Assembly: GCF_910592395.1 (NCBI RefSeq)
Contig: NC_088316.1
Span: 9,052,001 to 9,116,000 of the forward strand
Direction of reading: 5' to 3'
Length of the DNA stretch: 64,000 nt
DNA from: Lineus longissimus
Lineage: Eukaryota > Nemertea > Pilidiophora > Heteronemertea > Lineidae
Position 1 is the first letter of the stretch. Each line of letters starts with the position of its first letter. Positions 37,043 to 64,000 of this stretch are shown one piece after another. Below the pieces are notes generated by a model. The model saw only the letters and a list, made by a program, of their open reading frames with translations, was not told the DNA's origin and did not search any database. The position numbers and the translations under genes are program-made.

Positions 37043-38530
37043 TGCATATTGACTAACATGGACGTGAAGTGTGCATAGGCAATGTTTCCGCTAGGACTGA
37101 ATGAAAAGGAGGTACAATGCTTTTTTAAAAAGCAATTTTGATGCAGTAAAACAACATTTCAGGCGTAAAAAAGGTCATAAAATCCTATTTTAACTTAAAA
37201 ATTACCTTACTTCAAATTAATAGACCACTTCCGCACCAGGTAGCGTACGGCAAGCGGCTGTTATAAAACGCGGATTCCGCGGAAATCCGCGGAAAAATCA
37301 CAAAGCCGCCAGTAAAAACGCGCATAATATTTAATGATAATTATATTATACAAATAACAACATAAATCATAAATCAGAGGCAAGAACTACCAGTTATCTG
37401 CACATTTCATCGGTCAGATTTTAATCCTCTGAAGCGCCATTCATGCCATTCCGATCGACTCTTTCCTCTTGCTTTTTTTCTTGGTGTTGATAAACTTTGC
37501 ATGTTATCTTCGACACCACCGTGGTTCCTTCCCTATAACGGAACACATATTACGAGGCTGCTTTCAAGTGTGACTGTTGCCCGGATTGATGTACGTTACG
37601 GTATATGCCTCCTTCAAATAATATGTAAAGAGCAAGCTCTAGTGAACTCACACAACTGTTTGACATGGGGGAGCCCCCCAAACCCCCGTCCTTCTGACAT
37701 ATTTAGCCAGAACATTGGGGGATGAGTCCCCCAAACCCCCTCCCCCGTTCTCTGAAAGTGACAGGTTTTAGTCAGTACATTGGGGGGGAAGGCCCCCCCA
37801 ACCCCCCCCATTGGACTCTAAAAATAGAATTCCTTGGAGACGCTGAACAACAAGGCCCCATAAAGAAATAGTCCCCGCCCCGGTAGCTGTCTCATATCTG
37901 CCGACAGAAGCAGCTCTTTGTGGTGAAATAATAATTGAATTTTCCACCTGCTAGCCTAGATATTTGTGTATGTTTCTTCACCAGTTAGTTAATAACGAAT
38001 TTTTGTAGCTTATAATTATATTCTTAATTGTTTTAACGCGTTTTTTTGGATTCGTTTGGCGCCAAAATCAAGAATGGCAAATTTACGACCTTGACACTAG
38101 AGGCGCTGATGTCGTTCCGGAACGGTAGATGCTAAATCGGATAGCCAGGCGGTAGGGGAACTCCTGCACCCTGACCACGTGAACTACATCAGGGAATTCC
38201 TCTATTACTTCGCAGCTCCACGGTGAAGTAAATAAATACTGAATAAAGGCCTAGTCACTTTTTCAAAATATGCGGATATAGGCCTAGTTACAAACCTTGA
38301 TTCGGTTTAACCTACAAAATAACTTGCATGTCATATGTGGTGTGTGACCATGCAGTCTTGTTTGCTGTTCCCCAGCTTGTTTGTTGGGGCCAGCATTGGT
38401 TTAGTCTACGCCCATCGCTGAGTTATGCACATGGTTGAGGAGTCTGGATATTGTGCGCCTGTATTTGCGCTAATTATTGTCAATCTTGTATGTTTATTGG
38501 CTTATTTGAGAGTCAAATAGTCATTTTTTG
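37043..38530. other. No supported gene; one G/C-run repeat
   Basis: AT-rich sequence apart from a repeat at 37615-37940 with alternating G and C runs, which is duplicated at 52750-53065. Confidence 0.5.
37615..37940 (+). repeat. G/C-run repeat, copy 1
   Basis: Starts AATAATATGTAAAGAGC and contains several CCCCCCAAACCCCC and CATTGGGGG blocks about 70 bp apart. It ends near TAGCTGTCTCATATCTG and TTTGTGGTGAAATAATAATTG. The same order appears at 52750-53065. A shorter related copy in the opposite orientation lies at about 54350-54480. Confidence 0.8.
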
Positions 38531-39650
38531 TATTCTAGGTTGAAATGGTACTCACCTACTCTCCTATCCTAAATGAAAGTATTTGCACATATAGACGCCC
38601 GGTAACTTCACAATATCAGAGTATGTACAGTTTCACCTGAAAACATAAAGGTAAGTCTTGTAATAATAATCAGTGTTTTTGGTTTGAGAATTTTTTGTTT
38701 CTAGTTGAAATATGTACTCACCACCTATCCTAAATAAAAGCATTTGCACATCTCGACGCCTGGTAACTTCACAATATCAGTATTTACAGTTTCACCTGAA
38801 AACATAAAGGTAAGTCTGATAATAATCAGTCCAGTGTTTTTGGTTTGAGAATTTATTGTTTCTAGTTGAAATATGTACTCACCACCTCTCCTAAATAAAA
38901 GCATTTGCACATCTCGACGCCTGGTAACTTCACAATATCAGTATGTACAGTTTCATCTGAAAACATAAAGGTAAGTCTTGTAATAATAATCAGTCCAGTG
39001 TTTTTGGTTTGAGAATTTATTGTTTCTAGTTGAAATATGTACTCACCACCTCTCCTAAATAAAAGCATTTGCACATCTCGACGCCTGGTAATTTCACAAT
39101 ATCAGTATGTACAGTTTCACCTGAAAACATAAAGGTAAGTCTTGTAATAATAATCAGTCCAGTGTTTTTGGTTTGAGAATTTATTGTTTCTAGTTGAAAT
39201 ATGTACTCACCACCTCTCCTAAATAAAAGCATTTGCACATCTCGACGCCTGGTAATTTCACAATATCAGTATGTGCAGTTTCACCTGAAAACATAAAGGT
39301 AAGTCTTGTAATAATAATCAGTCCAGTGTTTTTGGTTTGAGAATTTTTTGTTTCTAGTTGAAATATGTACTCACCACCTCTCCTAAATAAAAGCATTTGC
39401 ACATCTCGACGCCTGGTAACTTCACAATATCAGTATTTACAGTTTCACCTGAAAACATAAAGGTAAGTCTTGTGATAATAATCAGTCCAGTGTTTTTGGT
39501 TTGAGAATTTATTGTTTCTAGTTGAAATATGTACTCACCACCTCTCCTAAATAAAAGCATTTGCACATCTCGACGCCTGGTAACTTCACAATATCAGTAT
39601 TTACAGTTTCACCTGAAAACATAAAGGTAAGTCTTGTAATAATCAATAAT
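38530..39650 (-). repeat. 164-bp satellite containing splice-like signals
   Basis: Six near-identical 164-bp units plus a diverged first unit. On the minus strand each contains TTTATGTTTTCAG, a 74-nt segment (GETVHTDIVKLPGVEMC in one frame) and a GTGAGT donor. 74 nt is not a multiple of three, so joined copies would not stay in frame. Overlapping 70-codon ORFs recur because each spans one unit plus part of the next. Lies just downstream of the SGNH-like ORF. Confidence 0.85.
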
Positions 39651-46600: not shown

Positions 46601-48424
46601 TCAAACAACATGCCCCGCAGACACAATCGGGCCGATTGTGTGCATGCCATCTACGAGGGAAGAAACGTCTCGTAGGTAGAAACGAGAGAATGTGGAGTGA
46701 TTACTCCAACATGCAGCGGAAACGACTTCTTGAAGAGCAACTCCTCGGTAGTTAGCCCAGGAGGTGACTAGTGCTCTAACTTCGTGCGCTGAGATGTTAG
46801 CTAGCGCACGAAGATCAGAGGAAGTCTTCAAGGTGTTGTAGGAAAGACGAATAGTCTCCACAATCCACCTTGAAATAGTGGCGGCCGCTATCTCTCGTTT
46901 ATTTCCCTCCTTATAGGACAAAAACAAACGCTCTCTCCCCTGGCGGATACCGGGAGGTTTTGTCCTATTTATGTAGAACTTTAGGGCCCTGACGGGACAT
47001 AAAGTTCTGTCAGGAAGATCATAAGAGATCGTTCCTGACAGAGAGGGAATAGTAACCGGGGGCCGAGAGGCGGCCGGTCCCTGGTTCTTCGCCAGAAATC
47101 CTGGTATGAAAGCCAGGATAACCTCCCCTCCCTCTCTAAAAGCCAGCTTCTTAAAAGAAAGTGCATGGAGCTCTGATCTCCGTTGGGCGGTAGCCAAGGC
47201 TACTAGAAAGACCGTTTTGAGTGTCAGATATTTCATGGATGAAATAGACATGGGTTCAAAAGGATGCCTCATGAGCACCTTAAGGACAACAGAAAGGTCC
47301 CATTTAGGGGTGTTGTGAACCGGTCTAGGACACTCTAATAACATTCCTCTGAAAAGAGGGGTTATTTGGTCCTCCCAACGAAGATCCCAGGTGCTTAAAA
47401 CACGGAGGGTAGAAGCGATGGCGGACTTGTACCCTTTTATAGCCGTGACAGATTGTTGTCTTTCCGTGAATAATTCAATAAGGAAATCAACTAATCTGTA
47501 TATAGAGGGAGAGATCGGATTAACTCCGCTCTCCCTGCACCAGGAAGTGAAGGTAGACCACTTTCCTTGATATACATCAAGGGTAGACCCCCTTTGAGGT
47601 GCGGACATGCGCTTGACAGCGATGTCCGAAAAGCCTCTCTGGTGGAGATGCAACTGGATAAGTTCCAGGCGTGAAACTTGAAAAATCCAGGGTTCTGGTG
47701 GTAGCATCTCCCCAGGGGGTGCCACAGGAGGTGCTTCCAAGTAGGAAGACTCCTGGGGTGGTCTATCAGGAGCTCCAGCAAGGCTGGGAACCAGGCCTGA
47801 TTTGGCCAGCAAGGTGCGATGAGAGTTATTCTCACCGGGTGGCTGGTCAAGATCTTGTTCAGGACTGGTTGGATGAGAGGGAGGGGTGGAAACGCATATG
47901 CGTTCAGCCCGACCCAAGAGGCTGTAAGGCTGTCGACTTCCAGGGCCTCTTCGTCCGGAAGTGGAGAGTAATAGATGGGAAGGCGATTGTTCAGCCTGGT
48001 GGCGAACAGATCTACCTTCGGAGATTGCCAAAGGCGACAAAGGTCGTCTACAATCTCCTGATGGAGTGTCCACTCTGTCTGAACTAGCTTGTTCTGACGG
48101 GACAGGGCGTCGGCAAGGATGTTGCGATTGCCCGGTATGTGTCTGGCACATATCGATACTCCAAGGTCGGCACAAAGATGGTAAAGCTCCCAAGTTAGCT
48201 GGCAAAGAATGCCGGACTTTGTGCCTCCCTGTCTCCTGACATATGCTACTACTGTAGAATTGTCGGAGAACAGGGTTACTCTCCGATTCTTCAGGCGAAG
48301 GGAAAGAGACCTCACGGCAAGAAGGACAGCCTTCATTTCCAATATATTTATTGGAAGAATGGTCTCCTCCCTTGTCCATAGACCCCTTATGGACATGTCC
48401 CCGTTGTTCAGATGTGCTCCCCAC
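46601..48424 (-). CDS. DIRS tyrosine recombinase (YR)
   Basis: The recombinase domain occupies about the last 340 residues, from SAPQRGSTLDVYQGKWSTF (near 47600) on. The catalytic set is visible: Arg in ATAQRRSELHAL, His-x-x-Arg in AHEVRALVTSW, a Trp near AACWSNHSTFSRF, and the nucleophilic Tyr in SRFYLRDV (codon 46676-46678). The first 250 residues overlap the RNase H frame and are not likely to be translated as part of YR. Domain intact. Confidence 0.8.
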   Translation of the reverse strand: MGSTSEQRGHVHKGSMDKGGDHSSNKYIGNEGCPSCREVSFPSPEESESNPVLRQFYSSSICQETGRHKVRHSLPANLGALPSLCRPWSIDMCQTHTGQSQHPCRRPVPSEQASSDRVDTPSGDCRRPLSPLAISEGRSVRHQAEQSPSHLLLSTSGRRGPGSRQPYSLLGRAERICVSTPPSHPTSPEQDLDQPPGENNSHRTLLAKSGLVPSLAGAPDRPPQESSYLEAPPVAPPGEMLPPEPWIFQVSRLELIQLHLHQRGFSDIAVKRMSAPQRGSTLDVYQGKWSTFTSWCRESGVNPISPSIYRLVDFLIELFTERQQSVTAIKGYKSAIASTLRVLSTWDLRWEDQITPLFRGMLLECPRPVHNTPKWDLSVVLKVLMRHPFEPMSISSMKYLTLKTVFLVALATAQRRSELHALSFKKLAFREGGEVILAFIPGFLAKNQGPAASRPPVTIPSLSGTISYDLPDRTLCPVRALKFYINRTKPPGIRQGRERLFLSYKEGNKREIAAATISRWIVETIRLSYNTLKTSSDLRALANISAHEVRALVTSWANYRGVALQEVVSAACWSNHSTFSRFYLRDVSSLVDGMHTIGPIVSAGHVV

Positions 48425-49657
48425 CCTAGTAGGGAATCATCTGTGAACAGGGACACTTCTGGGGGCGGTGGAGCAAGATCTACACCGCTTTGGAGATGAG
48501 TCTCCGACTCCCAGAAGTTCCAGACTTTCTTGAGTAGGTATTGAGGTATCAATACCAACTTGTCTAATGGGTCCCTGTGGGGTTTCCATAGAGACATTAG
48601 AAACATCTGGATGGGACGCATATATAGACGGCCAAGGGGGACTTGGTCTGCTGCCGAATTCAGAAGTCCCAAAAGGCTCAAGCATCGCCTTGCGGGAGCT
48701 TGAGTCCTTCCTCTGAATTCTGCGACGAGATGAAGAATTTTCTTTATCCTGTCCAGGGGGGGGGGGGCAGCATTTTCCCTATGGCCGTAAGGAACCGAAC
48801 TCCAACGTAAACGAAGTCTTGGGATGGTATGAATTCTGACTTTGTTTCGTTGATAATCCAACCTGCAGAAACTACTTTTTGCTTTAGAACCTGAAGTTGT
48901 TGCAGTAGTAGTTCCCGCGATTTGCAACGGAGTAGCTAATCGTCTAGGTAGTGATGGAGCTTGAACCCCATCACGTGAAAGGGAGCGACGAAGGCTGTGA
49001 CTATCATCGTAAAAATTAGGGGTGCCGATGCCAGACCGAACGGCAGGGCCCTGAATTGATACGTCTTTCCTTCGTAATGGAATCGAAGGAAGTGTTGATA
49101 GTCTGGATGGATCGGTACATGTAAGTACGCATCCGTTAAATCCATCGATACCGCCCAATCGTTGGGCTGTATCGCCGTTGCTATAGACCTGGTGGTTTCC
49201 ATCTTGAAATGAGGAACATTCAAGAAGGTGTTTAACCTGGAAAGGTCTATGATCAGCCTCCATGTCCCTGCTTTCTTGGGAACCAAGAAAACGTGGCAGT
49301 AAAAGCCGGGGGAGCATGGATCTTGAAGGACCTGGATAGCTTGCTTCTCCAGTAATGTCGCGACCTCTGTTTGGAGGGCAGAGGCCTTGACTGGGTCCTT
49401 CGGTGGCTGAACTGGGGTTGGATATATGGTAGTCGGGGGGTACGGTTGAAATCTAGTTTCACTCCGTACCTCAACATGTTTGGGACTGGGGACCCCTTTG
49501 GGCACCAATCGTCCCAAATGTCTGCAAATTTTTGCAGACGGCCCCCGACTACCGGAGTCGGCTCCTTTTTGCGTCCGGGAGGAGAAAGGAGGGGGGAGTC
49601 ACCTCTTCCGGCCAGCACCCCTTGGGCGAAAGGAGTGCTTAGTCGGACCGGATCCAC
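47491..49657 (-). pseudogene. DIRS reverse transcriptase-RNase H, three lesions
   Basis: The coding sense runs through three frames. The first holds VVGGRLQKFADIWDDW. The frame shifts at a G6 run (49435-49440), then the RT core follows: FLVPKKAGTWRLIIDLSRLN, MDLTDAYLHVPI, LPFGLASAPLIFT and the active site YLDD. A TAG at 48936-48938 follows YLDD directly. The frame shifts again at a G12 run (48756-48767), then come the thumb and RNase H with SLFTDDSLLGWGAH, NILEMKAV, LFSDNSTVVAYV and ILADALSRQ, giving all four acidic residues. Two of three lesions are homopolymer indels. Confidence 0.8.
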
Positions 49658-51167
49658 CCTGGTTAGAGGAAGTATTTTTCCTCTTTCCAGTCCGGCGACC
49701 CTCCGCTTCCCGTCGGAAGGATCCAGCAGGAGCAGTCTGACTAGGCGGGGTAGGCCTAGGCAGGACCTGCCTGGCGTACCGGATTGAACCCGATGCCTGC
49801 TGGGGCCTCTCTATCTTTCTAGTGTTAGGTAGAGAGGTCTTGGCCCTCTGTGTCGCAGTGGGGGCATATAATTTGTCCCAATCTTTCTGTGCTTGAGCCG
49901 CCTCTTGTACAGAATCTGCGAACAGGAAAGAACCGTCCATAGGAGCGGTTCTTAAGGCCCCTTCCAGCTGGAGGGATCTGATCACATTGAGAGAGCCCAG
50001 TGCGGCGTCTCTACGGAGTAGGACGCTATTTGCTGCGGTCTTGGCGGACAGAGCAATAGCGTGCCTAATCGAATGTGACAAGGATGTCACAAGCGATTTT
50101 GTGTCATCAGATAGTGACTCATTATCTTTTAGGGATCTGGCTAGGGCCAGGTTAGTGTGCTCTGCGTAGGAGAGCACCGCTAACGTGTTTTTGGCCAGAC
50201 CCTCTTGTGCTCTAAGGTCTCGGTAAGCCGAGGAGGAGGTCACCATAGGCACGAGTTGGTCCAGCTGTACATCGTCCTTTGATATGGAAGTCGATGCTGC
50301 AGCTGGACAGCCGGCCGAGCTGACTCGATAATAGTCAGCGCGGTACTGCCTAACGGGAGGAAGTTGTGCCGTGAACAACTTCCCCGGTTTACACCAAGCT
50401 TCCGGTCCGACTGCCGGAAGGACAGGGATGGAAGTACGTTGGTGGGCGCCTTGTGAGTCTCTGATTGTATGCTCCAAAGGTTCAGAGACTGCTACCACCG
50501 ACGGGGAGGGAGGAAGGAATTCAAGTGCCCAAGTGGAGCCTTGAGAAACCTGTGGATTGGGATCCACTTCCTGTCCCCAGAGTGAAAAGGTCGGTGTTGA
50601 CAAGGCTGGCAGTTCCGGCGGGGTAGGGCACAGATCCTGCCGGAGGTACGCTCTGATCAAGGATCTGAGTGTCCTCATATCCGACAAGATACTGGCCTCC
50701 TCTGGTGACAGCTCCTCCTGATTGGGGGAGCGGTAGCCTGGCTGAGAACTCTCGTTCTCAGAAAATTCCTCTAAAATAGAGGAGTCGGATGGTGGGTATC
50801 CGATGGGACCAGGCGCACCAGAGGAACCGGAACCCTGCTCCAGATGGCTGAGTCCATCAGTAAGACCTGCTACCATCTGGATGAGCTGGGACAGTTGCTG
50901 TCCCGACTCGGGTTCCGGACCCGACGTGCGGCTTCTCTCAACGACGGGCGGTTGAGGCGAGGGTGAGCGCATAAGCGAACCCTGGAAGCCGTATGTACGG
51001 GCGAATGGGTCTTCCGGAAGCGGAAGATGCCCATATTCTGAACCAGAGTTCAGATGTCCTCTCTGCGTAGCTCGTTCCATGGGAACGACGCCTCTGCTAC
51101 GAGGAGGGGGTGGCACTTCCGGTTGGTTCCACCCAAGAAGTTGGCCAACGTAGGAAGGTGCCTGCAT
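49599..51167 (-). CDS. DIRS gag-like protein (522 aa)
   Basis: The N-terminal 220 residues are Pro/Ser/Glu-rich. A helical part (about residues 310-430) with LVPMVTSSSAYRDLRAQEG and SIRHAIALSAKTAANSVLLR matches the usual position and style of DIRS gag-like proteins. The C-terminus is very basic (RREAEGRRTGKRKN), as expected for nucleic acid binding. Intact. The RT frame starts about 60 nt upstream of its stop. Confidence 0.7.
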   Translation of the reverse strand: MQAPSYVGQLLGWNQPEVPPPPRSRGVVPMERATQRGHLNSGSEYGHLPLPEDPFARTYGFQGSLMRSPSPQPPVVERSRTSGPEPESGQQLSQLIQMVAGLTDGLSHLEQGSGSSGAPGPIGYPPSDSSILEEFSENESSQPGYRSPNQEELSPEEASILSDMRTLRSLIRAYLRQDLCPTPPELPALSTPTFSLWGQEVDPNPQVSQGSTWALEFLPPSPSVVAVSEPLEHTIRDSQGAHQRTSIPVLPAVGPEAWCKPGKLFTAQLPPVRQYRADYYRVSSAGCPAAASTSISKDDVQLDQLVPMVTSSSAYRDLRAQEGLAKNTLAVLSYAEHTNLALARSLKDNESLSDDTKSLVTSLSHSIRHAIALSAKTAANSVLLRRDAALGSLNVIRSLQLEGALRTAPMDGSFLFADSVQEAAQAQKDWDKLYAPTATQRAKTSLPNTRKIERPQQASGSIRYARQVLPRPTPPSQTAPAGSFRREAEGRRTGKRKNTSSNQGGSGPTKHSFRPRGAGRKR

Positions 51168-51203
51168 TTCCGGTAGGACGAAGTCCGAAACCGGAAATGC
51201 CCG

Positions 51204-51887
51204 TTACTCCTTCGCCGGTATGGAGCTACCGGAAGCCCTATTAGAAGGAGGTACGGAGGGCGGAAACGATGTTACCGAAGACGCATGGCGTTTCGGAGGT
51301 GGCGTTATAAGGTCCGGCCCTACTCTACTGTGTCCGTGAGGACTGGGGTTATTTCGCAGTAAAGACTGAGAAAAACCCCCAGTAGAGTCTTCGGTTACTG
51401 AAAAACGGGAGCCCGCGTCAGTAACCGGAACTGCAATCGGCGGACCGGAAGCAGGGTGCTCCCGCGGGTACAAAGGGCTTGTACTCGGGGGAGCGGACGA
51501 CAGAGGAACCGGAAGGTTCCCTGAGGTCCGGGGTATATTAAACCCTTGGAGACTTATTGGATGTAAGTCTCCCTTGGGACCACAGACATTAATAATGTCA
51601 GATCCCGCATCCTTCGCAGCCCCGGCCGGAACCGGAACTCGGCTGACGGAAGGGGTGGTTGCGGGAGGTTTGCTAGACCTCCGGGTTATATGCCCGGAAA
51701 CGGAACCGGAAGAGGGTTTAGGCGTCTTCGCGGCCCGTTTCCCGCCACCAGACGCATTCCTTTGTGGTGAGACAAAGGATGCCGTCGGAGGGGTACGCCA
51801 TATAAAAAATGGTACCAATGACAATAAAAACACTGGGAACCCCAAGTAGGCCAGAAAGGACGCAATAATTAATGGAAAGGAAAACAT
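51204..51887 (-). CDS. DIRS 5' ORF, Pro/Ser-rich (227 aa)
   Basis: First long frame of the element. The N-terminal 30 residues are hydrophobic, the remainder Pro/Ser/Gly-rich and low in complexity. Position just inside the right ITR and upstream of the gag-like ORF suggests a leader or first gag segment. Function unknown. Confidence 0.45.
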   Translation of the reverse strand: MFSFPLIIASFLAYLGFPVFLLSLVPFFIWRTPPTASFVSPQRNASGGGKRAAKTPKPSSGSVSGHITRRSSKPPATTPSVSRVPVPAGAAKDAGSDIINVCGPKGDLHPISLQGFNIPRTSGNLPVPLSSAPPSTSPLYPREHPASGPPIAVPVTDAGSRFSVTEDSTGGFSQSLLRNNPSPHGHSRVGPDLITPPPKRHASSVTSFPPSVPPSNRASGSSIPAKE

Positions 51888-55640: not shown

Positions 55641-56595
55641 ACCGCAGAAAATGTTGCTTACGGAAAAAAATTTGGGCGATTCGACTCAAATTCAGCTCCC
55701 CAGGGGGCAAAATGCGTAAATGAAAGAACAATTTTTTGACGCTCTATTCCAGCAGATAAAAGCTTGAAGTAAAGTTGAAAAGGTCTTCATGATACAGAAG
55801 TTTTGATATAAAATAGATTAGTGTCGATTTATATCACCAGTCGGCGGTAGTGAGCAAAACTGTTGTTTGACCCCGGATGACCCCGCTTTAAATTTCCCGC
55901 CGAGGTTACCTGGAGAACTATCATCAAGAAAATGGCGGCGACCTTTTTATTTCTACCGGAGCGATGATTTGTAAGTGACAAATTTTCTTATTTGAGCCTT
56001 TACGGAAATGTATTTTGGTACGAAACTTCACACGTTTATAGAAAAGATCAACGAGAATGTGTTCAAATGCCCTCATAACGATGAGTTCAACGGAATTTGG
56101 TCAAAACAACCTTCGAATGGAGTCAACTTTCTTTGCGAAATTGAAGCGACGACCTCATTATTTATCGTAATTTATGCATATCTGAGTCCAGCTGATGGGT
56201 GATGTTCTGATTTGTGTTCAAACTATTGGAAACTTCGGAAATTAGTTCTATTAATTCTACTATTCTGCAGGAGTATATTATAGCCATTGATGTTGACAGC
56301 TAAAAGCACGAAAACTTTGTTGTTGATCGTCGGGGCGGATTGATATGTGGTTGTGCGTCCAAGGCGAGAATGTAGATAATGAGGTGATAGGAATAATAGG
56401 TATTTTGAAGCCATTTTGACCAAAGCCCTTACAGGCCTTTTTGTCTCAAATTAGCTTAGAAACCCCTAAGAACCAGCCACCTCATTATCTACATTCTTAG
56501 GGAATACTACAGCTCAATGGGTTAATTCCTTAAAATAAATGGCCTTTTTACTGTCTTCATTATCCAAAATTCAAGGAAAAATTCAAGTAAATTAA
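55641..56595. other. Left flank of the virus-like block
   Basis: No ORF of note; short frames only. It contains the inverted repeat at 56367-56497. The transition from host-like sequence to the gene-dense block must lie here, but no long TIR or target duplication could be assigned because the right end is outside the window. Confidence 0.5.
56367..56497. repeat. 20-bp perfect inverted repeat near the left border
   Basis: AGAATGTAGATAATGAGGTG (56367-56386) and its exact reverse complement (56478-56497) enclose 91 bp. It may be a small nested element, or two end fragments of the virus-like element brought head to head. Confidence 0.7.
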
Positions 56596-57954
56596 ATGTA
56601 TTATCCAATAGCAAATCAACATAAAAGTAAATTCACCTATGACTTCTTTAATTTAGAAGTAACTGTTAACAGTAACAATTTCTTCAGACTACAAGAAACT
56701 AAGATAACACCTGGGTTTTTGAGCCTGAAAAATAAGAAAGACTGTCTGCGACTGGAAAAGAATCCATTATCGTTTTACCAGAACCAATTTAACATGGCTG
56801 TTTGGTTTGCTACTACCGGTTGTGGTATTTCAATAGATGATCACTTGAATCACAGTGACCCATTGATAAGGTCAATTTACAGATTTCATGTTTACTATCA
56901 AATATTGAAGATCATGAAGAATCTAGAGATACCAATTCCAGGTGAAAGTGATTTCAACGAGACAAACAATAACATTAACCGTAGGAAACTAGGAGGGTTA
57001 TTGAGTGAATTTGGTTTAAAAGACGAATATGATTTCTCAGTGTTTGAAAGTAATGAGGGGTGGACTTCCTGGAGTGTACCGGATTACAACCCGAACATAA
57101 CTGATCCCGGATATTACATCAATGATTCTAAAATCAATTTCTTTCTCATGCAAGTTCATGAAAATAGAATGCCACCAATGTTTAAATCTGATTGGGATGC
57201 TGGAATGGCTAATTTCAAATATCCAGATACCTTCATTAAGGATCATGTCAGGAGACACAAGAATGTATTTGATGTAATTACACAAAATGAATGTCAAACC
57301 TATCAACAATTCATGATATTTAAATCAAATGGTTTCTCTAATCCTGGAATAGAGAGGTTGAATGATACAATAAGAACATATGTTTACTGTATTCTGGGTG
57401 CTCAGGCGTTGACCAGAACACCAATAATTGGAGTACCGGGTACAGAATTGGATGCTCAGAAGATATTTAACAAACTATTAAAGGACTCGATTAATCAACA
57501 TCCTGATATTCCCACTTCAATTCAAAGATACCAAAAAGCAGTGAGTGACACTCATACAAGACTAGATTATGTAATAGCACCAGGATTGTATGTCATAGGG
57601 TCAAATATGGTACTCGTTATTGGTAAGCTGGATAACTACAATAATAACATTTTAATAGCACCAAAAAATGCTAAACCTGGTAAGAATGACATTAACCACA
57701 AAAAGACCTTACCACCACCACTGATGGAAGGAAATAGTTCTAAGAAAATAAGAGTTAAGAGTAGTGTTGATACTGTCAAGACCAGTCATACACCAAAGAG
57801 TAATGTTGATGCACCAAAAACAACTGAAACATCAAAGAATACTCCTACTACTAAACGGAACACCAAAGTTGAGAGGGAGGATGATACTCATGAAACAATT
57901 AAATTCACGCTTTACTCAGTTGTTGGTACATTGATTGTTTTTATGGTTAGATAA
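56596..57954 (+). CDS. Conserved virus-like element protein, C-terminal anchor (452 aa)
   Basis: Intronless. Contains FYQNQFNMAVWFATTGCGIS, LIRSIYRFHVYYQ, ERLNDTIRTYVYCILGAQA and RLDYVIAPGLYVIGSNM, in the order seen in a family of hypothetical proteins widespread in cnidarian and other invertebrate genomes. I know that family only as a pattern; no biochemical function is known to me. Residues 385-430 are Lys/Thr/Pro-rich, then FTLYSVVGTLIVFMV forms a single C-terminal membrane segment. A role in the particle is possible but unproven. The ATG at 56596 is the first in frame; the next gene starts 10 nt after the stop. Confidence 0.6.
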   Translation: MYYPIANQHKSKFTYDFFNLEVTVNSNNFFRLQETKITPGFLSLKNKKDCLRLEKNPLSFYQNQFNMAVWFATTGCGISIDDHLNHSDPLIRSIYRFHVYYQILKIMKNLEIPIPGESDFNETNNNINRRKLGGLLSEFGLKDEYDFSVFESNEGWTSWSVPDYNPNITDPGYYINDSKINFFLMQVHENRMPPMFKSDWDAGMANFKYPDTFIKDHVRRHKNVFDVITQNECQTYQQFMIFKSNGFSNPGIERLNDTIRTYVYCILGAQALTRTPIIGVPGTELDAQKIFNKLLKDSINQHPDIPTSIQRYQKAVSDTHTRLDYVIAPGLYVIGSNMVLVIGKLDNYNNNILIAPKNAKPGKNDINHKKTLPPPLMEGNSSKKIRVKSSVDTVKTSHTPKSNVDAPKTTETSKNTPTTKRNTKVEREDDTHETIKFTLYSVVGTLIVFMVR

Positions 57955-57964
57955 ATAAGTAATT

Positions 57965-59491
57965 ATGGCTGAAGGAGGTGCAGATTATGAAATGGATGAT
58001 TACGATCATAATTACATTCATAATGTGGATGATCCTAATACAGGTGAAACCAATAGAAATTTTCAAGATGACGGCACAACATACAACACAGGTAATACAA
58101 ATCTTACTACTGAAACTTCATTCACTACAACTCCAGAAAGAATAAGAGGTATTGATCCGCAACTAGAGAAAGAGAAGAGTTGGCTACTATTTAAAGAGGA
58201 TAAACTTGCAAAAGCATTGGAAGAAACAAAATGGAAATATGACCCTAACAAACTGAGTAATCTAGCATCACGTATTTATGTGCACAACAGCGATCCTTAC
58301 TTCTTACCAACAGATGAAGAACTCGCAAACTTTACAGAACCACAAAAGAAAAATATTGAACTAGTCACTAATCCTTTTAATAATCAGAAAGTCTGGATCA
58401 TTCCTTTAACTAAGGGTGATAGTAAATTCTTTACTGAAGGCACATTAAAGAATAAGTTTGGTACTAATTTTGTTAATTATTTAAAAGGTATGATTGCACC
58501 TGATGAACCAGCACATATGGAAGGACCTAGAATGGCACCTATGGAAGGCTCGGAACCAGTAAGTCAACCACAACTGATATCAACTCAAGCTGTTGAAACA
58601 CAGTCACTAATTAATGAGGTAAACAGTTCAAACCAACCAATAGATCAACTGATAGATGCTAATGATGAAGAATTAAGGGCATTTGGTTTTACAGAAAACG
58701 CTTTGAGAGAACTTAGAGCGTTAAAACAGGCTGGTGATGATCTAGCTGCAGTAAAGAGGGATAAGGACATGCAAATAGAGGAATTAGAAAATAAACTTCA
58801 TAATTTAACAAGAGACTATGTAAAGTATGTAGAAGAAGGTTCTAAAGATACGGGGGAGTTGAAAAAGCAAATAGATGAACTAAATGACAAATTGCATGAG
58901 GAAATGTCAAAGGTATGGAGGTTAGACAATGACAGGGAGTCACAAACTAGAAGAATTAAACGTTTAATTGTTGATGTTCTAAAGAAACCAGATTCAACTA
59001 TTCCTCTAAAGGACAGAATAAAGTTACTTTTTAAGACGTATGGTGTAACCATTAGCGCCATAATAACAGCTGTTGTAATGACATTTACAACTCTAGGTCT
59101 CAGTATCAGTAGTGCTTTAAGTGGTGCCACTAAATCTGTAAAACCAACTCCAGGACCAGACCCAACTCCAGGACCAGACCCAACTCCAGGACCTACACCA
59201 GAACCTGGGCCAGGACCAAAACCATCAATACCGGATAAAGTAAAAGAAGGTCTCAAGAAGTTTGCTGAATGGCTAAAAGAACTAGCCAAGAAATCAGCTG
59301 CGGCTTTACCGGGAATAATAGGGTCTTTAGTTTCATTTCTCCTGAAAACAGTTGGTGCAGTTGTTGGCTTTCTAGCTGAACTTCTGATCATAGCAGTTAT
59401 TGCTATTGTGAGCTCCATAATCTATGGTTTAATTGGGGGTGTTAAAGCCTTAAAATCACGTAAAGCCTTAATATCACGTAAAAGGTCTTAG
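57965..59491 (+). CDS. Coiled-coil protein with Pro linker and hydrophobic C-terminus (508 aa)
   Basis: Acidic N-terminus; coiled-coil heptads about residues 235-332 (LENKLHNLTRDYVKYVEEGS, LKKQIDELNDKLHEEMSKV); KDRIKLLFKTYGVTISAIIT leading into a hydrophobic segment at about 360-385; a PGPDPTPGPDPTPGP linker (about 393-419); an amphipathic helix; then AALPGIIGSLVSFLLKTVG and a second long hydrophobic stretch to about 491; basic tail. The same layout, including the ALPGIIGS motif, occurs in hypothetical proteins of related invertebrate elements. Likely membrane- or particle-associated; function unknown. Confidence 0.6.
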   Translation: MAEGGADYEMDDYDHNYIHNVDDPNTGETNRNFQDDGTTYNTGNTNLTTETSFTTTPERIRGIDPQLEKEKSWLLFKEDKLAKALEETKWKYDPNKLSNLASRIYVHNSDPYFLPTDEELANFTEPQKKNIELVTNPFNNQKVWIIPLTKGDSKFFTEGTLKNKFGTNFVNYLKGMIAPDEPAHMEGPRMAPMEGSEPVSQPQLISTQAVETQSLINEVNSSNQPIDQLIDANDEELRAFGFTENALRELRALKQAGDDLAAVKRDKDMQIEELENKLHNLTRDYVKYVEEGSKDTGELKKQIDELNDKLHEEMSKVWRLDNDRESQTRRIKRLIVDVLKKPDSTIPLKDRIKLLFKTYGVTISAIITAVVMTFTTLGLSISSALSGATKSVKPTPGPDPTPGPDPTPGPTPEPGPGPKPSIPDKVKEGLKKFAEWLKELAKKSAAALPGIIGSLVSFLLKTVGAVVGFLAELLIIAVIAIVSSIIYGLIGGVKALKSRKALISRKRS

Positions 59492-59541
59492 GTGAACTTC
59501 TATCAAAAAACAATGTTTAAAAAAATAATTATCATGTAAAT

Positions 59542-60651
59542 ATGAATAAATACATCTCATTTAAAGATTATTATTCTAGTGAGTGGAACAATGAGAATCT
59601 TAAAGGATACATTCGTCCTAGGGTCATGGATAGAAATTTTAGTGAAGAAAATGACAGCAAGAATTATGACAGTGGGAAATTTGATAAGCCTACTGAGACA
59701 CACAAAGTAGTCCTGCCAAGAATGAAAGAATATGACGTCAGTACCAACACTAATGCCCAATTCTGCCGTAATTGCAAACGTTGGACACTTTTTGAGTATC
59801 AAAAGAATTTAAATTTAGCCAGGAACGCCGCTAAAACTGTGAAGTATCAATTCTCCATTGTTTGTAATGCAACCAGTTATGATGATGATTTTAAGACTCT
59901 TGAGATCAATATTGACAACAAGATTCGTTATTTTGACATTATTCTTAGAAAGCTTGGATGGAGACGTTTGTCTGAATCGGTTCTCAAATATTTAAAGGAC
60001 TTTGTGGAAGGGTATTTACAGTGCTACTTTTCAAGTCACAGAAAATGTCTTAGTAAGCAGAGATATGAAAGTACAGTCCACTTAGCTTTAAAAATGGGTA
60101 TTAACACTCTCCCCTCTAAGTTACGGGAAAAGGGGTTACATGGCGAGGCCATACTTGTTGCATTTCACTGTGGGGAATATGACTGGTTTCTTGCCATTGA
60201 ATTTATCAACAGGGTTATTGGTAAACCCCAATTAACAGATGAGAATATCACTGACCTTAGACTAGTGTACTATGCTTTCCTTAGATTTCTGCATTACTGT
60301 GGTGTGAAGGTCACAATTAACTACAAGGTATTTTTACACCAAGCCTTTAAAACGATGAAAATTGATTATGTAATATTTAGACCTTTTTTAACCAACAAGG
60401 AGCGAGGTAATGATTTGGAGAGATTATGGTATGATTTCACTCGAAGTATTTTCTTCCAGAATTACAAGGTTGAGAAGGAATATGACCAGGATATTGACAA
60501 GCAGTTTGACGTTTTATTGAGTGCTAGTGCAGGTCGAGACATTAACTGCATCAGTAGTATTAAGTTAGCACCAGCCGGACTTTGTCCTGAGAGCATAGCT
60601 CGAGCTAGTGTTAAGTGCAATAAACTTGTGAAAACAGCATTTTGCACTTAA
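59542..60651 (+). CDS. Unknown protein (369 aa)
   Basis: Third gene of the block. Has an FCRNCKRW Cys pair at about residues 73-80 and a mainly helical, aromatic-rich middle. Near its C-terminus it reads through copy 1 of the double-hairpin motif (giving LCPESIARAS). No family recognised. The C-terminal 25 residues are probably poorly constrained, since they are dictated by the nucleotide motif. Confidence 0.5.
   Translation: MNKYISFKDYYSSEWNNENLKGYIRPRVMDRNFSEENDSKNYDSGKFDKPTETHKVVLPRMKEYDVSTNTNAQFCRNCKRWTLFEYQKNLNLARNAAKTVKYQFSIVCNATSYDDDFKTLEINIDNKIRYFDIILRKLGWRRLSESVLKYLKDFVEGYLQCYFSSHRKCLSKQRYESTVHLALKMGINTLPSKLREKGLHGEAILVAFHCGEYDWFLAIEFINRVIGKPQLTDENITDLRLVYYAFLRFLHYCGVKVTINYKVFLHQAFKTMKIDYVIFRPFLTNKERGNDLERLWYDFTRSIFFQNYKVEKEYDQDIDKQFDVLLSASAGRDINCISSIKLAPAGLCPESIARASVKCNKLVKTAFCT
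60577..60603 (+). repeat. Double-hairpin motif, copy 1
   Basis: GGAC-TTT-GTCC, TGA, GAGC-ATA-GCTC, GA. Within the C-terminal codons of the 369-aa gene. Confidence 0.85.
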
Positions 60652-60724
60652 CACTCATTTTTCTATTATTTTAAATGAACAGTCAGCAAATGAATAGTAA
60701 GACATCATCTGTAATTGAACAACA

Positions 60725-61501
60725 ATGAAACATATTGGTGTTATCAATCAAAACCCAGTCGGACGCAGTCCTGAGAGCATAGCTCGAGTCGGGGCTTCTA
60801 ACCAACAGAACACTGGTAGTTACCAACAGAACAGTACTAACTTTCAACAGAACTGCACTACAAATCAACAAGTTTCAAACAAGCAGTTGAATAGTTCAAA
60901 TTTAGTTACTCCTAGTCAAGGAATAGTCAATTCTAGTTACCAACTAGGATCAACTAGCAATCAACAAGGTTCAAGTAGCAATCAACAAAATTTGAACTAT
61001 TTGACTGATAGTGGCCTTAAAGCCAAACAAGACTTAGAAATTTTAGTTGCAACTGGGAAAAGCAAGTATTTACTTAATAAACAACTAACTTTAAATGACT
61101 TAGATAATATGACAGAAAAGGAACTCTTAAAACACCACAGAATCTACCAGACAAAGATGGCTGCCAGACTTAATGATTCTTTGGGTAAGACAGTACTTAA
61201 AGCTTACACTAAATTATCAAGGTGGTTATTACCAATAGATGACGAGGATGATCTTTACCATGACCTCAGAAATGATTACATCGTTACCAATGAACTTGAC
61301 AAATTGCTTGGATGGGTTAGTATCAAAATGGGAGCACTAACTGCACTTGCTTCAACAACACTTATTACTTTAGGCCATTGTCATGAGGAATCATCAATGA
61401 ATACATTGGGTATGAATACAGCAAATATGACTGTCTCTGAATGTGACAAAACAATAGATGAAAGTCTAGATATCACAGGTAGTGATGATAAAGAAGACTA
61501 A
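60725..61501 (+). CDS. Asn/Gln-rich protein (258 aa)
   Basis: Motif copy 2 lies at codons 13-21 (RSPESIAR). Residues about 25-95 are repeats of NQQ, SYQQN and SSNQQ, a low-complexity prion-like region. The rest is charged and helical, with a modest hydrophobic segment MGALTALASTTLITLG (about 200-215) and an acidic C-terminus. Function unknown. Motif copy 3 starts 2 nt after the stop codon. Confidence 0.45.
   Translation: MKHIGVINQNPVGRSPESIARVGASNQQNTGSYQQNSTNFQQNCTTNQQVSNKQLNSSNLVTPSQGIVNSSYQLGSTSNQQGSSSNQQNLNYLTDSGLKAKQDLEILVATGKSKYLLNKQLTLNDLDNMTEKELLKHHRIYQTKMAARLNDSLGKTVLKAYTKLSRWLLPIDDEDDLYHDLRNDYIVTNELDKLLGWVSIKMGALTALASTTLITLGHCHEESSMNTLGMNTANMTVSECDKTIDESLDITGSDDKED
60761..60787 (+). 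repeat. Double-hairpin motif, copy 2
   Basis: GGAC-GCA-GTCC, TGA, GAGC-ATA-GCTC, GA. Starts at codon 13 of the Asn/Gln-rich gene. Confidence 0.85.
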
Positions 61502-61503
61502 AT

Positions 61504-61530
61504 TAACCTGGTTATGAGAACATAGTTCGA
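61504..61530 (+). repeat. Double-hairpin motif, copy 3
   Basis: TAAC-CTG-GTTA, TGA, GAAC-ATA-GTTC, GA. Intergenic, 19 nt before the ATG of the 162-aa gene. Both stems differ from copy 1 but still pair perfectly. Confidence 0.85.
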
Positions 61531-61549
61531 ATTTATTCGGCCAAGATAA

Positions 61550-62038
61550 ATGGAACTTGAAACTGTAACTGATACTACTAAAGTTTCAGTGTCTAAGAAA
61601 CCTCGATCAGAGAAACAATTAGCATGGTCTAGAGAACTGGGTAGAAGATCTCAGGAATTTAAGAGGATAAAAAAGGATAAGACGACATTTAAAGTACAGT
61701 ACTCCTCACCAAACAACAGAGTTGTGGAAAAGGAGGAAGAAGAAGTAGAGGAAGAAGAACCACAATCTCAAAATACTAATGTATCACTGCGTGAATCTAC
61801 CAAGAATACCTATGTCTATGTAGGTTTAGGTGCAATTATTTTAGCAGCATTTATCATGTTTAAGAAACTTCCTAAAAAAGTAAGTAAAGAGCAGCGATCA
61901 GGCTTGAATCGAGCTATGCTCTCAGGACACAGTCCGAATGAAGCAGTCATGAAAGGATCACTCAGGAAGGGGTCAATTAGCCCTCTTGTTAAACCTGTAG
62001 TTAAAGAGAAGAAATGTACTATTCCTTTAATGGAATGA
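61550..62038 (+). CDS. Small single-span membrane protein (162 aa)
   Basis: Basic N-terminus, acidic run EKEEEEVEEEEP (about 61-72), a single membrane segment YVYVGLGAIILAAFIMF (about 88-104), then a basic tail. Motif copy 4, in reverse orientation, lies in the tail (RAMLSGHSPN). Overlaps the convergent gene by 20 nt at its 3' end. Function unknown. Confidence 0.5.
   Translation: MELETVTDTTKVSVSKKPRSEKQLAWSRELGRRSQEFKRIKKDKTTFKVQYSSPNNRVVEKEEEEVEEEEPQSQNTNVSLRESTKNTYVYVGLGAIILAAFIMFKKLPKKVSKEQRSGLNRAMLSGHSPNEAVMKGSLRKGSISPLVKPVVKEKKCTIPLME
61909..61935 (-). repeat. Double-hairpin motif, copy 4 (reverse)
   Basis: On the minus strand: GGAC-TGT-GTCC, TGA, GAGC-ATA-GCTC, GA. In the C-terminal codons of the 162-aa gene. 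Confidence 0.85.
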
Positions 62039-63023
62039 TCTCATCAGGTGGTCCGAGGTGCTTGTCTTCACCACAAGAGTTTAACTCTATTCTTAACTCT
62101 AAAGAAACCTCTGTTCCTCTGAAATTAACTAGCTTACCATTCTCATCAGTGATTTCGTATTTTATGTGATTAGTACACTTATTTATCGTTTTCTTACAAT
62201 TCGGTTCGTATCGCTGCATTTTTATTTGGTCACCATCTTCTACAGGTATGATGCAGAAAATGTTAGATGGTTTATTGTTGTAGAGGGTCTTAGCTTTGTC
62301 AACCAAATTAGCTTGCAGGAATAGATATTTTCTGTAAAAGTTGAGTGGTCTTGTGGAGTAGTATTTTCCTTTCTTGGTGAATTTAGTTTGCTTAAAGCCG
62401 AACCATTCATTCACCACTGTGAGCTGTTTTTTTATCAACTCTCTTATGGTTTTGCTTATTTGAAGACCTTCTGTGTTTCTCTCAATCTTGATTTTTTCAT
62501 TTTTATCTAACTTGTCTACTTTCAGAGGGTACTCTTTATCCTCTGTAAGTTCAAGGGTTATGTAATTATTGTTATCACAGTAAATTTTCACATGGCTTAT
62601 TCCAATTTCTTTTATGTATTTTTGCCATACCTCACAAAACTCACTTAAACTAAAATGTCGAGAGTATGGAAATGTGTATTTAGTAATGGTGTCTTTAGTT
62701 GTGGTAGATTCATTTTCCAAATGCCGTTCGCAAATTTTCATGACTTCCTTTTCAAGTGTATCTGTTTCAAGTCCAGGAGCAAATAATGTCCTAAATTCAT
62801 CCATACACCATAATTGTTTATCTAAGGGCTCATTTGTTGTAATTCTGGTTATTTCGACTAGAAATGAGAAAATCCTGACTCCCTCTGGTAGAAAATCACC
62901 TGTCCACCATGAATTGTAAAAGGTTATCGATTTCAAAGTAATGGATTTTATGTCTAATTGGTCTATTAAGTGGTACTCAAATTTGGCTTCATTACATTCT
63001 TGTTCACTGATTATAAAGTCCAT
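62019..63023 (-). CDS. Possible penton/minor capsid-like jelly-roll protein (334 aa)
   Basis: The only minus-strand gene in the block. N-terminal DIKSITLKSITFYNSWW resembles the start of jelly-roll minor capsid (penton) proteins of Polinton-type elements, where a similar strand-strand-YNSW pattern occurs. The C-terminus has ITDENGKLVNFRGTEVSLEL, like the last strands of that fold. In between are charged strands without further signature. The call rests on pattern memory only. It shares a 57-bp intergenic region with the divergent C2H2 gene. Confidence 0.35.
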   Translation of the reverse strand: MDFIISEQECNEAKFEYHLIDQLDIKSITLKSITFYNSWWTGDFLPEGVRIFSFLVEITRITTNEPLDKQLWCMDEFRTLFAPGLETDTLEKEVMKICERHLENESTTTKDTITKYTFPYSRHFSLSEFCEVWQKYIKEIGISHVKIYCDNNNYITLELTEDKEYPLKVDKLDKNEKIKIERNTEGLQISKTIRELIKKQLTVVNEWFGFKQTKFTKKGKYYSTRPLNFYRKYLFLQANLVDKAKTLYNNKPSNIFCIIPVEDGDQIKMQRYEPNCKKTINKCTNHIKYEITDENGKLVNFRGTEVSLELRIELNSCGEDKHLGPPDEIIPLKE

Positions 63024-63080
63024 TTCTATTTAATTCAAGAGATTTATTGAATTTAATAAATTTTAGTCTAATAAAATAGA
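63024..63080. promoter_or_regulatory. Divergent promoter region
   Basis: 57 bp, over 85% A+T, between the start codons of the minus-strand 334-aa gene and the plus-strand C2H2 gene. It must hold both 5' leaders. TTTATTGAATTTAATAAATT is near-palindromic and lies centrally. Confidence 0.4.
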
Positions 63081-63428
63081 ATGACTGATAAGAATCAGAA
63101 AATACTTTGCACTACATGTGACAAGTACATATCATACAATAATATGGCCATTCACAGGAGAACCAAAGGTCACCTGACCAAATTAAATCCGGATTATGTC
63201 CCTATTGCTCAACCCCGAGCCCAATCACTGATCACTAAAAGTATGGATAAGAAACTTGCATTTGAGGAAAATGAGCTAGATGGCATAAAGAAAGTGAGTG
63301 GAGTAGAAATAGTAAAACAATTTGGCAAGCCTGTAGTCACCATTAGTTTGAAGATTGACAGAGAAGCTAAACAAGTGTATGAATACAGAGAGAAATTAGA
63401 GGAGGTATTATTTCAACTCAATGATTAA
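63081..63428 (+). CDS. Small C2H2 zinc-finger protein (115 aa)
   Basis: A single zinc finger at residues 10-31: CTTCDKYISYNNMAIHRRTK then GH, i.e. Cys-x2-Cys-x11-His-x5-His. The rest is charged, with a beta-rich C-terminal half (KPVVTISLKIDREAKQVYEY). Probably nucleic-acid binding; lies just upstream of the polymerase-type gene. Confidence 0.6.
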   Translation: MTDKNQKILCTTCDKYISYNNMAIHRRTKGHLTKLNPDYVPIAQPRAQSLITKSMDKKLAFEENELDGIKKVSGVEIVKQFGKPVVTISLKIDREAKQVYEYREKLEEVLFQLND

Positions 63429-63493
63429 TTACCATCACAAAATAAGCATATCAGTATTTGCTCAGTTTGATCGTCAAGGTGAAAGTGTAACCC

Positions 63494-63520
63494 GGACTAC
63501 GTCCAGAGAGCACAGCTCGA
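63494..63520 (+). repeat. Double-hairpin motif, copy 5
   Basis: GGAC-TAC-GTCC, AGA, GAGC-ACA-GCTC, GA. Intergenic, 20 nt before the ATG of the polymerase-type gene. Confidence 0.85.
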
Positions 63521-63540
63521 CACACCCCATACAGTCTCCA

Positions 63541-64000
63541 ATGGAAAGCATAATTTCAAGGAACCAGGCAATTTATGCCATAACCAACCAGTTAAACTTC
63601 ATTAAGACACAGATTGAGGAAAGGTACTTTCAAGGGTCTGGACTTACACTGAACAAAATAGAGTCTTGTAACATGACCATCTGTTCTTACAAGAGGTGTA
63701 AAGGTGGTCATTACACTAAATTACCATTTAAAACAAAAGCTGTAATCAATGTGGAGTCGAATGACAATAAATGTTTTCTCTGGTCTTTATTGGCCGCTAA
63801 ATATCTAAAAGAAAATCCTGAGAGTACATTCAATATCACTACTGATATGCTAGAAATGACTTCGTCACGAGAACAGAGTTCGAAAACTACTGATATCAAA
63901 ATCGAGCTCTGCTCTCAGTACGGAGTACAAATAGACTCATTTCCTGTATGTATTCAAAAGGATATCCCTAAGATAGAGAGTGATAATAATCTCAAAATTA
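63541..64000 (+). CDS. N-terminal part of a family B DNA polymerase-type polyprotein (partial)
   Basis: ATG at 63541, open to the window edge (153 codons). It contains LNKIESCNMTICSYKRCKGG, HYTKLPFKTKAVINVESNDN, KCFLWSLLAAKYL and YGVQIDSFPVCIQKDIPKIE. This order (Lys-rich INV-x-N-x-D-x-CF-x-W-S-L-AA, then a PV-x-x-DI-x-K-x-E end) is typical of the domain found N-terminal to protein-primed DNA polymerase B in Polinton-like and related virus-like elements of invertebrates. The polymerase domain itself would lie beyond 64000. Motif copies 6 and 7 are inside this frame. Confidence 0.65.
   Translation, partial: MESIISRNQAIYAITNQLNFIKTQIEERYFQGSGLTLNKIESCNMTICSYKRCKGGHYTKLPFKTKAVINVESNDNKCFLWSLLAAKYLKENPESTFNITTDMLEMTSSREQSSKTTDIKIELCSQYGVQIDSFPVCIQKDIPKIESDNNLKI
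63857..63883 (+). repeat. Double-hairpin motif, copy 6
   Basis: TGAC-TTC-GTCA, CGA, GAAC-AGA-GTTC, GA. Inside the polymerase-type gene; both stems changed with pairing kept. Confidence 0.85.
63902..63928 (-). repeat. Double-hairpin motif, copy 7 (reverse)
   Basis: On the minus strand: GTAC-TCC-GTAC, TGA, GAGC-AGA-GCTC, GA. Lies 18 nt from copy 6 and faces it, the closest pair in the window. Confidence 0.85.

Follow-up and report, generated by a model that had tools for sequence, protein, structure and literature searches.

Introduction

The mobile DNAs nearest to the repeat studied here are the hairpin elements of organelles and the protein-coding palindromes of Rickettsia. In this study we focus on a double-hairpin unit of about 28 nt that lies in seven copies in a stretch of 64,000 nucleotides of the Lineus longissimus genome (contig NC_088316.1, positions 9,052,001 to 9,116,000; hereafter the window), all within a virus-like element of the Polinton/Maverick type. 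Among the organellar elements, the GC clusters of yeast mitochondria are reportedly named as single elements and tandem arrays in the title of a paper by Weiller in 1989, and ultra-short invasive elements of Podospora mitochondria are said to figure in that of a paper by Koll in 1996. The Podospora elements belong to an organelle, and their likeness to the present unit, in very small size and invasiveness, is known from the title alone.

The GC clusters of yeast mitochondrial DNA (GC42) have a mechanism of spread that is discussed as open (PMC4478555); they are mitochondrial and 42 nt long, whereas the present unit has about 28 nt, belongs to a nuclear virus-like element, occupies coding sequence in six frames and adds 30 bp. 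The double-hairpin elements of Allomyces mitochondria (Paquin 2000, as cited in PMC7218506) resemble it in having two hairpins per unit and a mobility inferred from optional presence, and are set apart, by the citing paper's description, by their mitochondrial location. Sponge mitochondria hold repetitive, very short hairpin-forming elements that are thought to be invasive, with apparent doubles resulting from tandem insertion (PMC2800124); these are mostly single hairpins with conserved stems and substitutions in the loop, whereas the stems of the present unit covary between subtypes. The palindromic repeats of Volvox are short, selfish, found in both orientations and also as nuclear DNA copies (PMC2670323), and the present copies differ in being polymorphic in Polintons.

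The Rickettsia palindromic elements are mobile, 105-146 bp long, fused in frame in protein genes and translated; for repeats of this type, one insert-bearing enzyme was shown to be active, and empty and filled sites were compared in Yersinia (PMC2229807). Such small mobile repeats measure about 100-200 bp, have terminal inverted repeats in most families and sit in bacteria, whereas the present unit consists of two small hairpins in about 28 nt and sits in a virus-like element. The bypass inserts of Magnusiomyces capitatus mitochondria are short blocks at 81 positions in coding genes (PMC5009743); they disrupt the frame and are skipped by the ribosome, whereas the present inserts keep the frame and avoid stops. 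Two hairpins, optional presence and short junction repeats are shared by the present unit with the GC-cluster and double-hairpin elements, and an organellar location is not. Because it is located in nuclear Polintons, the present element is a variant, not a member, of the organellar hairpin kind. Among the matches listed from the open-licence PubMed Central literature, no ultra-short hairpin element in a virus or a Polinton was found.

An initial annotation of the window had described seven perfectly paired copies of a rigid 27-nt motif, made of two successive hairpins with 4-bp stems and 3-nt loops, with compensatory changes in both stems, and had proposed a role as a binding, recombination, packaging or RNA processing site. 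The analysis reported here indicates, with a probability of roughly 0.8, that the motif is a mobile, non-autonomous double-hairpin element of about 28 nt within a Polinton/Maverick family.

Results

Empty and filled sites

The unit is optionally present, in both orientations, with a gain of 30 bp, a 2-bp target duplication at most sites and an open reading frame. The stretches read (24 of 10 kb plus the window, all from one genome, with at most about a dozen covering any position of the element) hold 230 copies under a relaxed rule demanding at least 6 of 8 pairs and at least 12 of 14 fixed bases. For 134 of them the nearest neighbour is more than about 60 bp away; these define 44 flank clusters, a few of which are one place split by flank divergence. 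At 25 of the 44, a sister stretch carries the same flanks exactly 30 bp closer, and at 11 another stretch has the flanks 30 bp further apart. Other spacings were met at fewer clusters, and the examples inspected were flank indels, partly deleted copies and compound sites. In one pair, the empty place reads CACTGAAACTTTA-GT-AGTATCAG and the filled one CACTGAAACTTTA-GT-C[27]-GT-AGTATCAG; since the C is gained with the insert, the base before the motif belongs to the insert.

Besides single copies, there are tandem arrays with a 30-bp period and head-to-head neighbours, and both of these can be read as insertion beside an earlier copy. Arrays with an exact 30-bp spacing and up to four units were seen at L110:8609-8725 and L114:407-493, and head-to-head pairs with a 5-nt gap at L111:219-337. 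At about position 7575 of L129 (minus strand), a different double-hairpin unit seems to be inserted in the stem 2 arm of a resident copy, with a simpler counterpart at position 5049 of L122. The same two stretches carry, at one place near the end of the ATPase gene (about 9637 in L122), 19-bp tandem repeats containing hairpin 1 only; the repeat, TGATC GGAC ACA GTCC, is present in one to three units, accompanied in some elements by full copies, and is possibly a half-unit or a slippage product.

The unit and its target

Of 78 distinct flanking sites (arrays included), 54 have the insert between the two halves of a 2-bp direct repeat, compared with 2 to 14 in shifted controls. The repeated pair is GT in 29 cases, followed by TT (8), CT (7), GC (4), GA (3), AT (2) and AA (1). 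Base -1 of the motif is C at 52 sites and A at 21 (C or A at 73 of 78), and the base past the right repeat, which is C at 32 sites, A at 26, T at 11 and G at 9, matches it at 38 of 78. Furthermore, an A stands at -4, before the target pair, at 64 of the 78 sites. The unit is about 28 nt long, [C/A]GGACnnnGTCC-nGA-GArC-AnA-GyTC-GA, and the target duplication is 2 bp. An alternative description, a 27-nt unit with a 3-bp A-X-Y duplication, cannot be fully told apart from this one, since the unit ends in A. The layout given by the initial annotation stands; its 27 nt become a natural unit of about 28 nt, which makes 30 bp together with the 2 nt duplicated from the target. An assignment to miniature inverted-repeat transposable elements was rejected: the ends, [C/A]GGAC... 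and ...CTCGA, are not mutual inverted repeats, and each hairpin is a separate palindrome.

Reading frame of the inserts

The frame was assigned by the flanking open reading, the copy itself not being read through, for 169 of the 230 copies, and the other 61 were left out. All six frames are occupied. The motif is a feature of the nucleic acid and not of a protein, in line with the initial annotation. In-frame stops lie inside 16 of the 169 copies, against 50.5 expected when sequences are shuffled among frames, and after deduplication inside 9 of 101, against 24.4 expected, a figure as low being reached in none of 5,000 shuffles. Eleven of the 16 stop-bearing copies are sites of the type of copy 3, just past a stop codon; with the codons straddling the junctions included, a stop is found in 20 of 169 copies. 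In frame f0, where a TGA spacer would be a stop, the spacer is CGA, AGA or GGA in 33 of 34 copies. Moreover, P0001, a predicted protein 94% like that of window gene 1, carries a ten-residue block that is absent from gene 1 of the window. Because the length gained is divisible by three and in-frame stops are avoided, the inserts are most likely translated as ten extra residues, as judged from the open frames.

Pairing between and within sites

Over the seven copies of the window, two pairs covary in stem 1 and one in stem 2, always with both sides changed. The covariation score is 0.369, against 0.117 in shuffles (0 of 500 as high) and no more than 0.071 when the partner is displaced by 1 to 3 columns. 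With seven rows, two other measures are weaker: both-side-changed pairs number 3 against 1.3 in shuffles (37 of 500), and additional pair types 4 against 3.1 (160 of 500). Over 78 distinct 27-mers, chosen by a rule that favours paired sequences, 55 have G-C and 20 have A-T at pair 17-23; at pair 1-11, G-C stands in 55, T-A in 8, A-T in 5 and another combination in 10.

Variation within sites was followed in 35 flank clusters with at least three copies (165 copies). None of the 33 small variants (at most three differences) has a paired change; their single stem changes comprise 17 that break a pair, 3 to G-U and 2 that restore one, and the remaining changes are 21 in loops and 5 in spacers. Larger variants number 14, of which 11 have a paired stem change, always alongside other marks of subtype in spacer or loop, and they look like the replacement of one subtype by another and not like stepwise compensation. 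The compensatory changes reported by the initial annotation are thus real between subtypes and absent from the small variants within sites. The simplest reading is that pairing separates founders, as needed for moving, with little upkeep of residents: pairing would be needed for mobility, because the paired changes lie between subtypes and not within sites. Loops also flip between copies, from TTT to AAA and from AGA to TCT, which suggests hairpin inversion, and hairpin-templated correction could make the arms match, besides selection.

Distribution in the genome

The genome search covered 391 Mb in 30 contigs, and the counts are lower bounds. The GGAC/GAGC pattern, with up to three mismatches, occurs at no fewer than 4,192 places (2,106 plus 2,086), against 0 plus 1 for the reversed control. 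The subtype with the other stem 2, GAAC/GTTC, has at least 499 exact matches (246 plus 253; control 0 plus 0), part of which share their places with the first set. Copy 3 with its flanks recurs at 181 places or more (92 plus 89; at most three mismatches; control 0 plus 0), therefore about 181 elements carry that site, with roughly 23 copies per element carrying it.

In the stretches read, all 230 copies lie inside one Polinton family (186 kb) and none in the 118 kb outside, in agreement with the claim that the motif belongs to virus-like elements; Polinton extent was taken from BLAST to a sister element, with gaps of up to 800 bp closed and 200 bp of slack at the edges. These Polintons stand on multi-megabase contigs, so the copies are not organelle DNA. 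Seven further places, six seemingly isolated and one close pair, from the GAAC/GTTC matches listed, all fell in this Polinton family or a relative of it, three being about 95-96% alike and the relative 73-87% over longer matches. The relative, a diverged subfamily (L132-L135; 73-87%, longer matches), has one copy, in the same gene and at the same place, either from an insertion that predates the subfamily split or from repeated insertion.

Assignment of the copies to genes is approximate, since they were mapped on the sister element and positions drift with upstream inserts. By this count PolB holds 60, gene 3 holds 44, gene 5 holds 32 and gene 4 holds 16; a gene judged zinc-finger-like by eye (L111:6300-7446) has 14, gene 1 has 9, gene 6 has 8, the integrase gene 7, a 219-aa gene 4 and the ATPase gene 2, and 34 lie between genes. 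None of the 230 falls in gene 2, a 152-aa gene, a gene judged penton-like by eye or the capsid gene, but coverage of the penton-like and capsid genes is only about 4 to 8 stretches, where most other parts have 7 to 12. A reading by eye of the gene at L111:6303-7457 as an HNH nuclease found no support in sequence searches of Pfam, NCBIfam and PDB. Further double-hairpin families in the Polintons are small, the largest having 8 copies and the remainder at most 4.

Search for relatives

In viral contigs the full GGAC/GAGC pattern had no match, and no close relatives of two window genes were found. Stem 2 by itself matched 99 stretches there; none of the 98 that could be tested had all four stem 1 pairs (best 3 of 4), and these look like chance. 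Homologues numbered 48 for gene 1 and, among 7,992 candidates scored, 96 for PolB, and none was found for gene 3. With strict patterns for the two main subtypes, the motif-encoded peptide was found in one of 144 proteins, P0001. A looser five-residue match over the 48 gene 1 relatives returned the P0001 block plus four scattered single matches (P0001, P0010, P0029 and P0047), which look like chance. The element looks lineage-specific, with the proviso that forms of different sequence would escape these patterns. One PolB relative, P0056 (52% identity, with 80% of the query covered), is recorded for the bacterial genus Sulfurimonas and is probably a contaminant.

The copies of the window and their host element

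The seven copies (Table 1) were all found where the initial annotation had placed them, five on the plus and two on the minus strand of the 64 kb, and Watson-Crick pairing holds in 56 of 56 stem cells, as it had stated. The layout with both GA dinucleotides had a mean of 0.0015 and a maximum of 1 in 2,000 Markov simulations of the last 7.5 kb, against seven observed; double hairpins of any sequence had a simulated mean of 0.223 over the same length. The preceding 56 kb hold no copy. A scan of the 64 kb by consensus plus pairing gave a next-best score of 19 of 26, the copies' own reverse readings aside. Each unit has two adjacent hairpins, and their folding is predicted for most, not all, of the seven copies; it is modest overall: copies 3, 6 and 7 do not surpass shuffles, and the structure predicted for copy 3 lacks stem 1.

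At the place of copy 1, stretch L130 has no copy and is 30 bp shorter, and other elements have two to four tandem copies with a 30-bp spacing. Copy 3 is an old site. A long inverted repeat (AGTGTTAAGTGCAA ... TTGCACTTAACACT), seen by eye at 60607-60655 across the end of gene 3, is possibly a transcript-end signal. The window had no Rfam match at gathering, and stretch L111 had only one, below gathering (E 0.18). Hammerhead-like and other ribozyme cores, tRNA and Pol III boxes and kink-turns were dropped after comparison by eye, Rfam having nothing above threshold.

Polintons/Mavericks are defined by a family B DNA polymerase of organellar/viral type, a retrovirus-like integrase, an A32-type packaging ATPase and a double jelly-roll major capsid protein; their terminal inverted repeats start 5'-AG, and they duplicate 6 bp of the target. 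The inverted ends of the housing element begin 5'-AG, and the inverted repeats measure about 170-180 bp or more. A sister element (L110-L112) is built alike and is bracketed by the 6-bp duplication CAGGAT. Its PolB matches PF03175 DNA_pol_B_2 (L111; E 4e-19, 69.3 bits, cut-off 25.8), its integrase matches rve (3.6e-11) and Chromo (1.2e-7), both above the Pfam cut-off, and its ATPase matches Pox_A32 (6.8e-15, 55.6 bits, cut-off 22.8), the last two in L111/L112; the capsid has a weak Capsid_N match (E 0.0022, 18 bits) that lies below the cut-off of 24. The housing element is of Polinton/Maverick type, judged by the PolB, rve integrase and A32 ATPase of the sister element and by its own inverted ends and 6-bp duplication.

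Table 1. Double-hairpin copies, housing element and other features of the window.
Feature	Position in the window	Strand	Details
Copy 1	60577..60603	+	GGAC TTT GTCC TGA GAGC ATA GCTC GA; near gene 3 C-terminus, frame f1 (PESIAR)
Copy 2	60761..60787	+	Gene 4 N-terminal part; flanks GTC/GTC; no empty counterpart among elements read
Copy 3	61504..61530	+	TAAC/GTTA, GAAC/GTTC; directly past gene 4 stop codon; no empty counterpart among elements read
Copy 4	61909..61935	-	Antisense inside gene 5; flanks TTC/TTC; empty counterparts 30 bp shorter
Copy 5	63494..63520	+	PolB gene N-terminal part; AGA spacer avoids in-frame TGA; empty counterparts 30 bp shorter
Copy 6	63857..63883	+	TGAC/GTCA; in PolB; flanks AAA/AAA; no empty counterpart among elements read
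Copy 7	63902..63928	-	GTAC/GTAC; in PolB; flanks TTT/TTT
Polinton/Maverick-type element, left part	56367..64000	+	Houses the copies; full 18,691 bp = G000:C9:9108367-9127057, through L108 into L109
Left 6-bp target-site duplication	56361..56366		AAGGCG; right copy follows element end in L109
Helitron-like open reading frame	42042-44633	-	Helitron_like_N 6.5e-24, DUF6570 3.9e-30
Overlapping open reading frames, tyrosine-recombinase (DIRS-type) retrotransposon-like	46601-51887	-	Putative, by eye
Satellite-like tandem array	22747-24247		91-bp units
Satellite-like tandem array	38523-39643		164-bp units

Discussion

Movement of the unit would take place while Polinton DNA is extrachromosomal or replicating, a step suggested because the neighbouring host DNA read held no copy. 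Single-stranded DNA, or else an RNA copy, may be where both hairpins fold and are recognised by a nuclease from the Polinton or the host; a break with ends staggered by 2 nt would then receive a copy of the unit, and the 2-bp repeat would arise as the gaps are filled. An inserted copy would need no function and could be tolerated as ten in-frame codons, with stop-creating copies being purged. The PolB protein has an endonuclease-VII-like stretch (PF02945, E 0.00029, 21.1 bits, below the cut-off of 23.6). Enzymes of the endonuclease-VII type act on branched DNA. This stretch is a tentative candidate for the mobilising nuclease, and rather an unlikely one; it cannot be the whole answer, because motif-free PolB relatives carry such a domain too.

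A more specific account would be that of a transposing unit of about 28 nt which parasitises the virus-like element and not its host, is mobilised by the replication or nuclease machinery of the Polinton, inserts ten codons per jump, spreads through viral coding genes in all frames and has subtypes matched to the frame; we consider its chances to be even. On this account the spacer TGA would be replaced by CGA, AGA or GGA where it reads as a stop, and the loop ATA avoided where TAG arises. To our knowledge, a unit of about 28 nt is among the smallest mobile elements known.

A small structured RNA that is reverse transcribed into breaks with a 2-nt stagger would be a special case of the mobile element. 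GGAC/GAGC copies are predicted to fold at -7.6 to -8.1 kcal/mol as RNA, against -4.3 to -4.6 as DNA, and the same idea was raised for the yeast GC clusters (PMC4478555); a Pfam scan of 16 open reading frames of the element, however, identified no reverse transcriptase family, and this route appears unlikely. Spread by gene conversion, slippage and template switching between hairpins, in which transposition as a separate step plays no part, could produce the 30-bp tandem arrays, the loop flips, which fit hairpin inversion, and the 14 same-site swaps of subtype. Gains of 30 bp with a 2-bp repeat at many unrelated flanks nevertheless call for a defined insertion step, and such spread seems improbable as a full account.

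That the copies serve the Polinton as cis-acting sites, for protein binding, packaging, replication or RNA processing, with hairpins under selection, would agree with stems that covary between copies, with the restriction of copies to the Polinton in the DNA read, with a number as high as 4,192 places or more and with stems that vary less than loops per position within sites. However, their presence varies among sister elements, they lie freely in both orientations and in six frames, no small variant is paired and 17 single changes break pairs, which makes this very unlikely and leaves the fixed binding, packaging and RNA-processing sites proposed in the initial annotation unsupported. A recombination-type role comes nearest to the observations among those listed there, the copies being mobile and not fixed sites. 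Inserts skipped by the ribosome, as in Magnusiomyces mitochondria, would equally be hairpins within coding regions, but those studied here add a length divisible by three and avoid stops, as translated sequence does, and the predicted protein P0001 includes the ten residues, so that bypass can be practically dismissed.

Several points weigh against a mobile double-hairpin element. For 19 of the 44 flank clusters, none of the elements read has a form that is shorter by exactly 30 bp, and one pair of empty and filled places has GTC in the insert where the target reads TC. No 2-bp repeat is found at 24 of the 78 sites, where mutation, conversion or neighbouring insertions may have removed it. Within sites, loops vary more than stems in proportion to their length, with 21 changes at 6 loop positions and 22 at 16 stem positions, so that resident stems may be under some constraint. 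The 14 same-site subtype swaps, 11 of them with a paired change, point to gene conversion or repeated insertion, which could explain part of the spread. The contrast between inside and outside is biased, as the stretches were chosen for holding or adjoining matches; the 56 kb of host DNA in the window were not selected as motif-free. Finally, the mobilising enzyme would be a candidate only, proposed from its sequence.

Ultra-short hairpin elements have long been a mitochondrial puzzle. With about 4,000 copies in a nuclear virus-like host and about 180 sister elements, the insertion, target choice, subtype evolution and selection of such elements become measurable. The unit also illustrates how mobile DNA can enter coding sequence in every frame when its net gain is divisible by three; the result is recurrent ten-residue inserts in viral proteins, and the DNA polymerase gene contains 60 of the 230 copies. 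Moreover, covariation in a repeat can reflect a constraint on mobility rather than function at the site.

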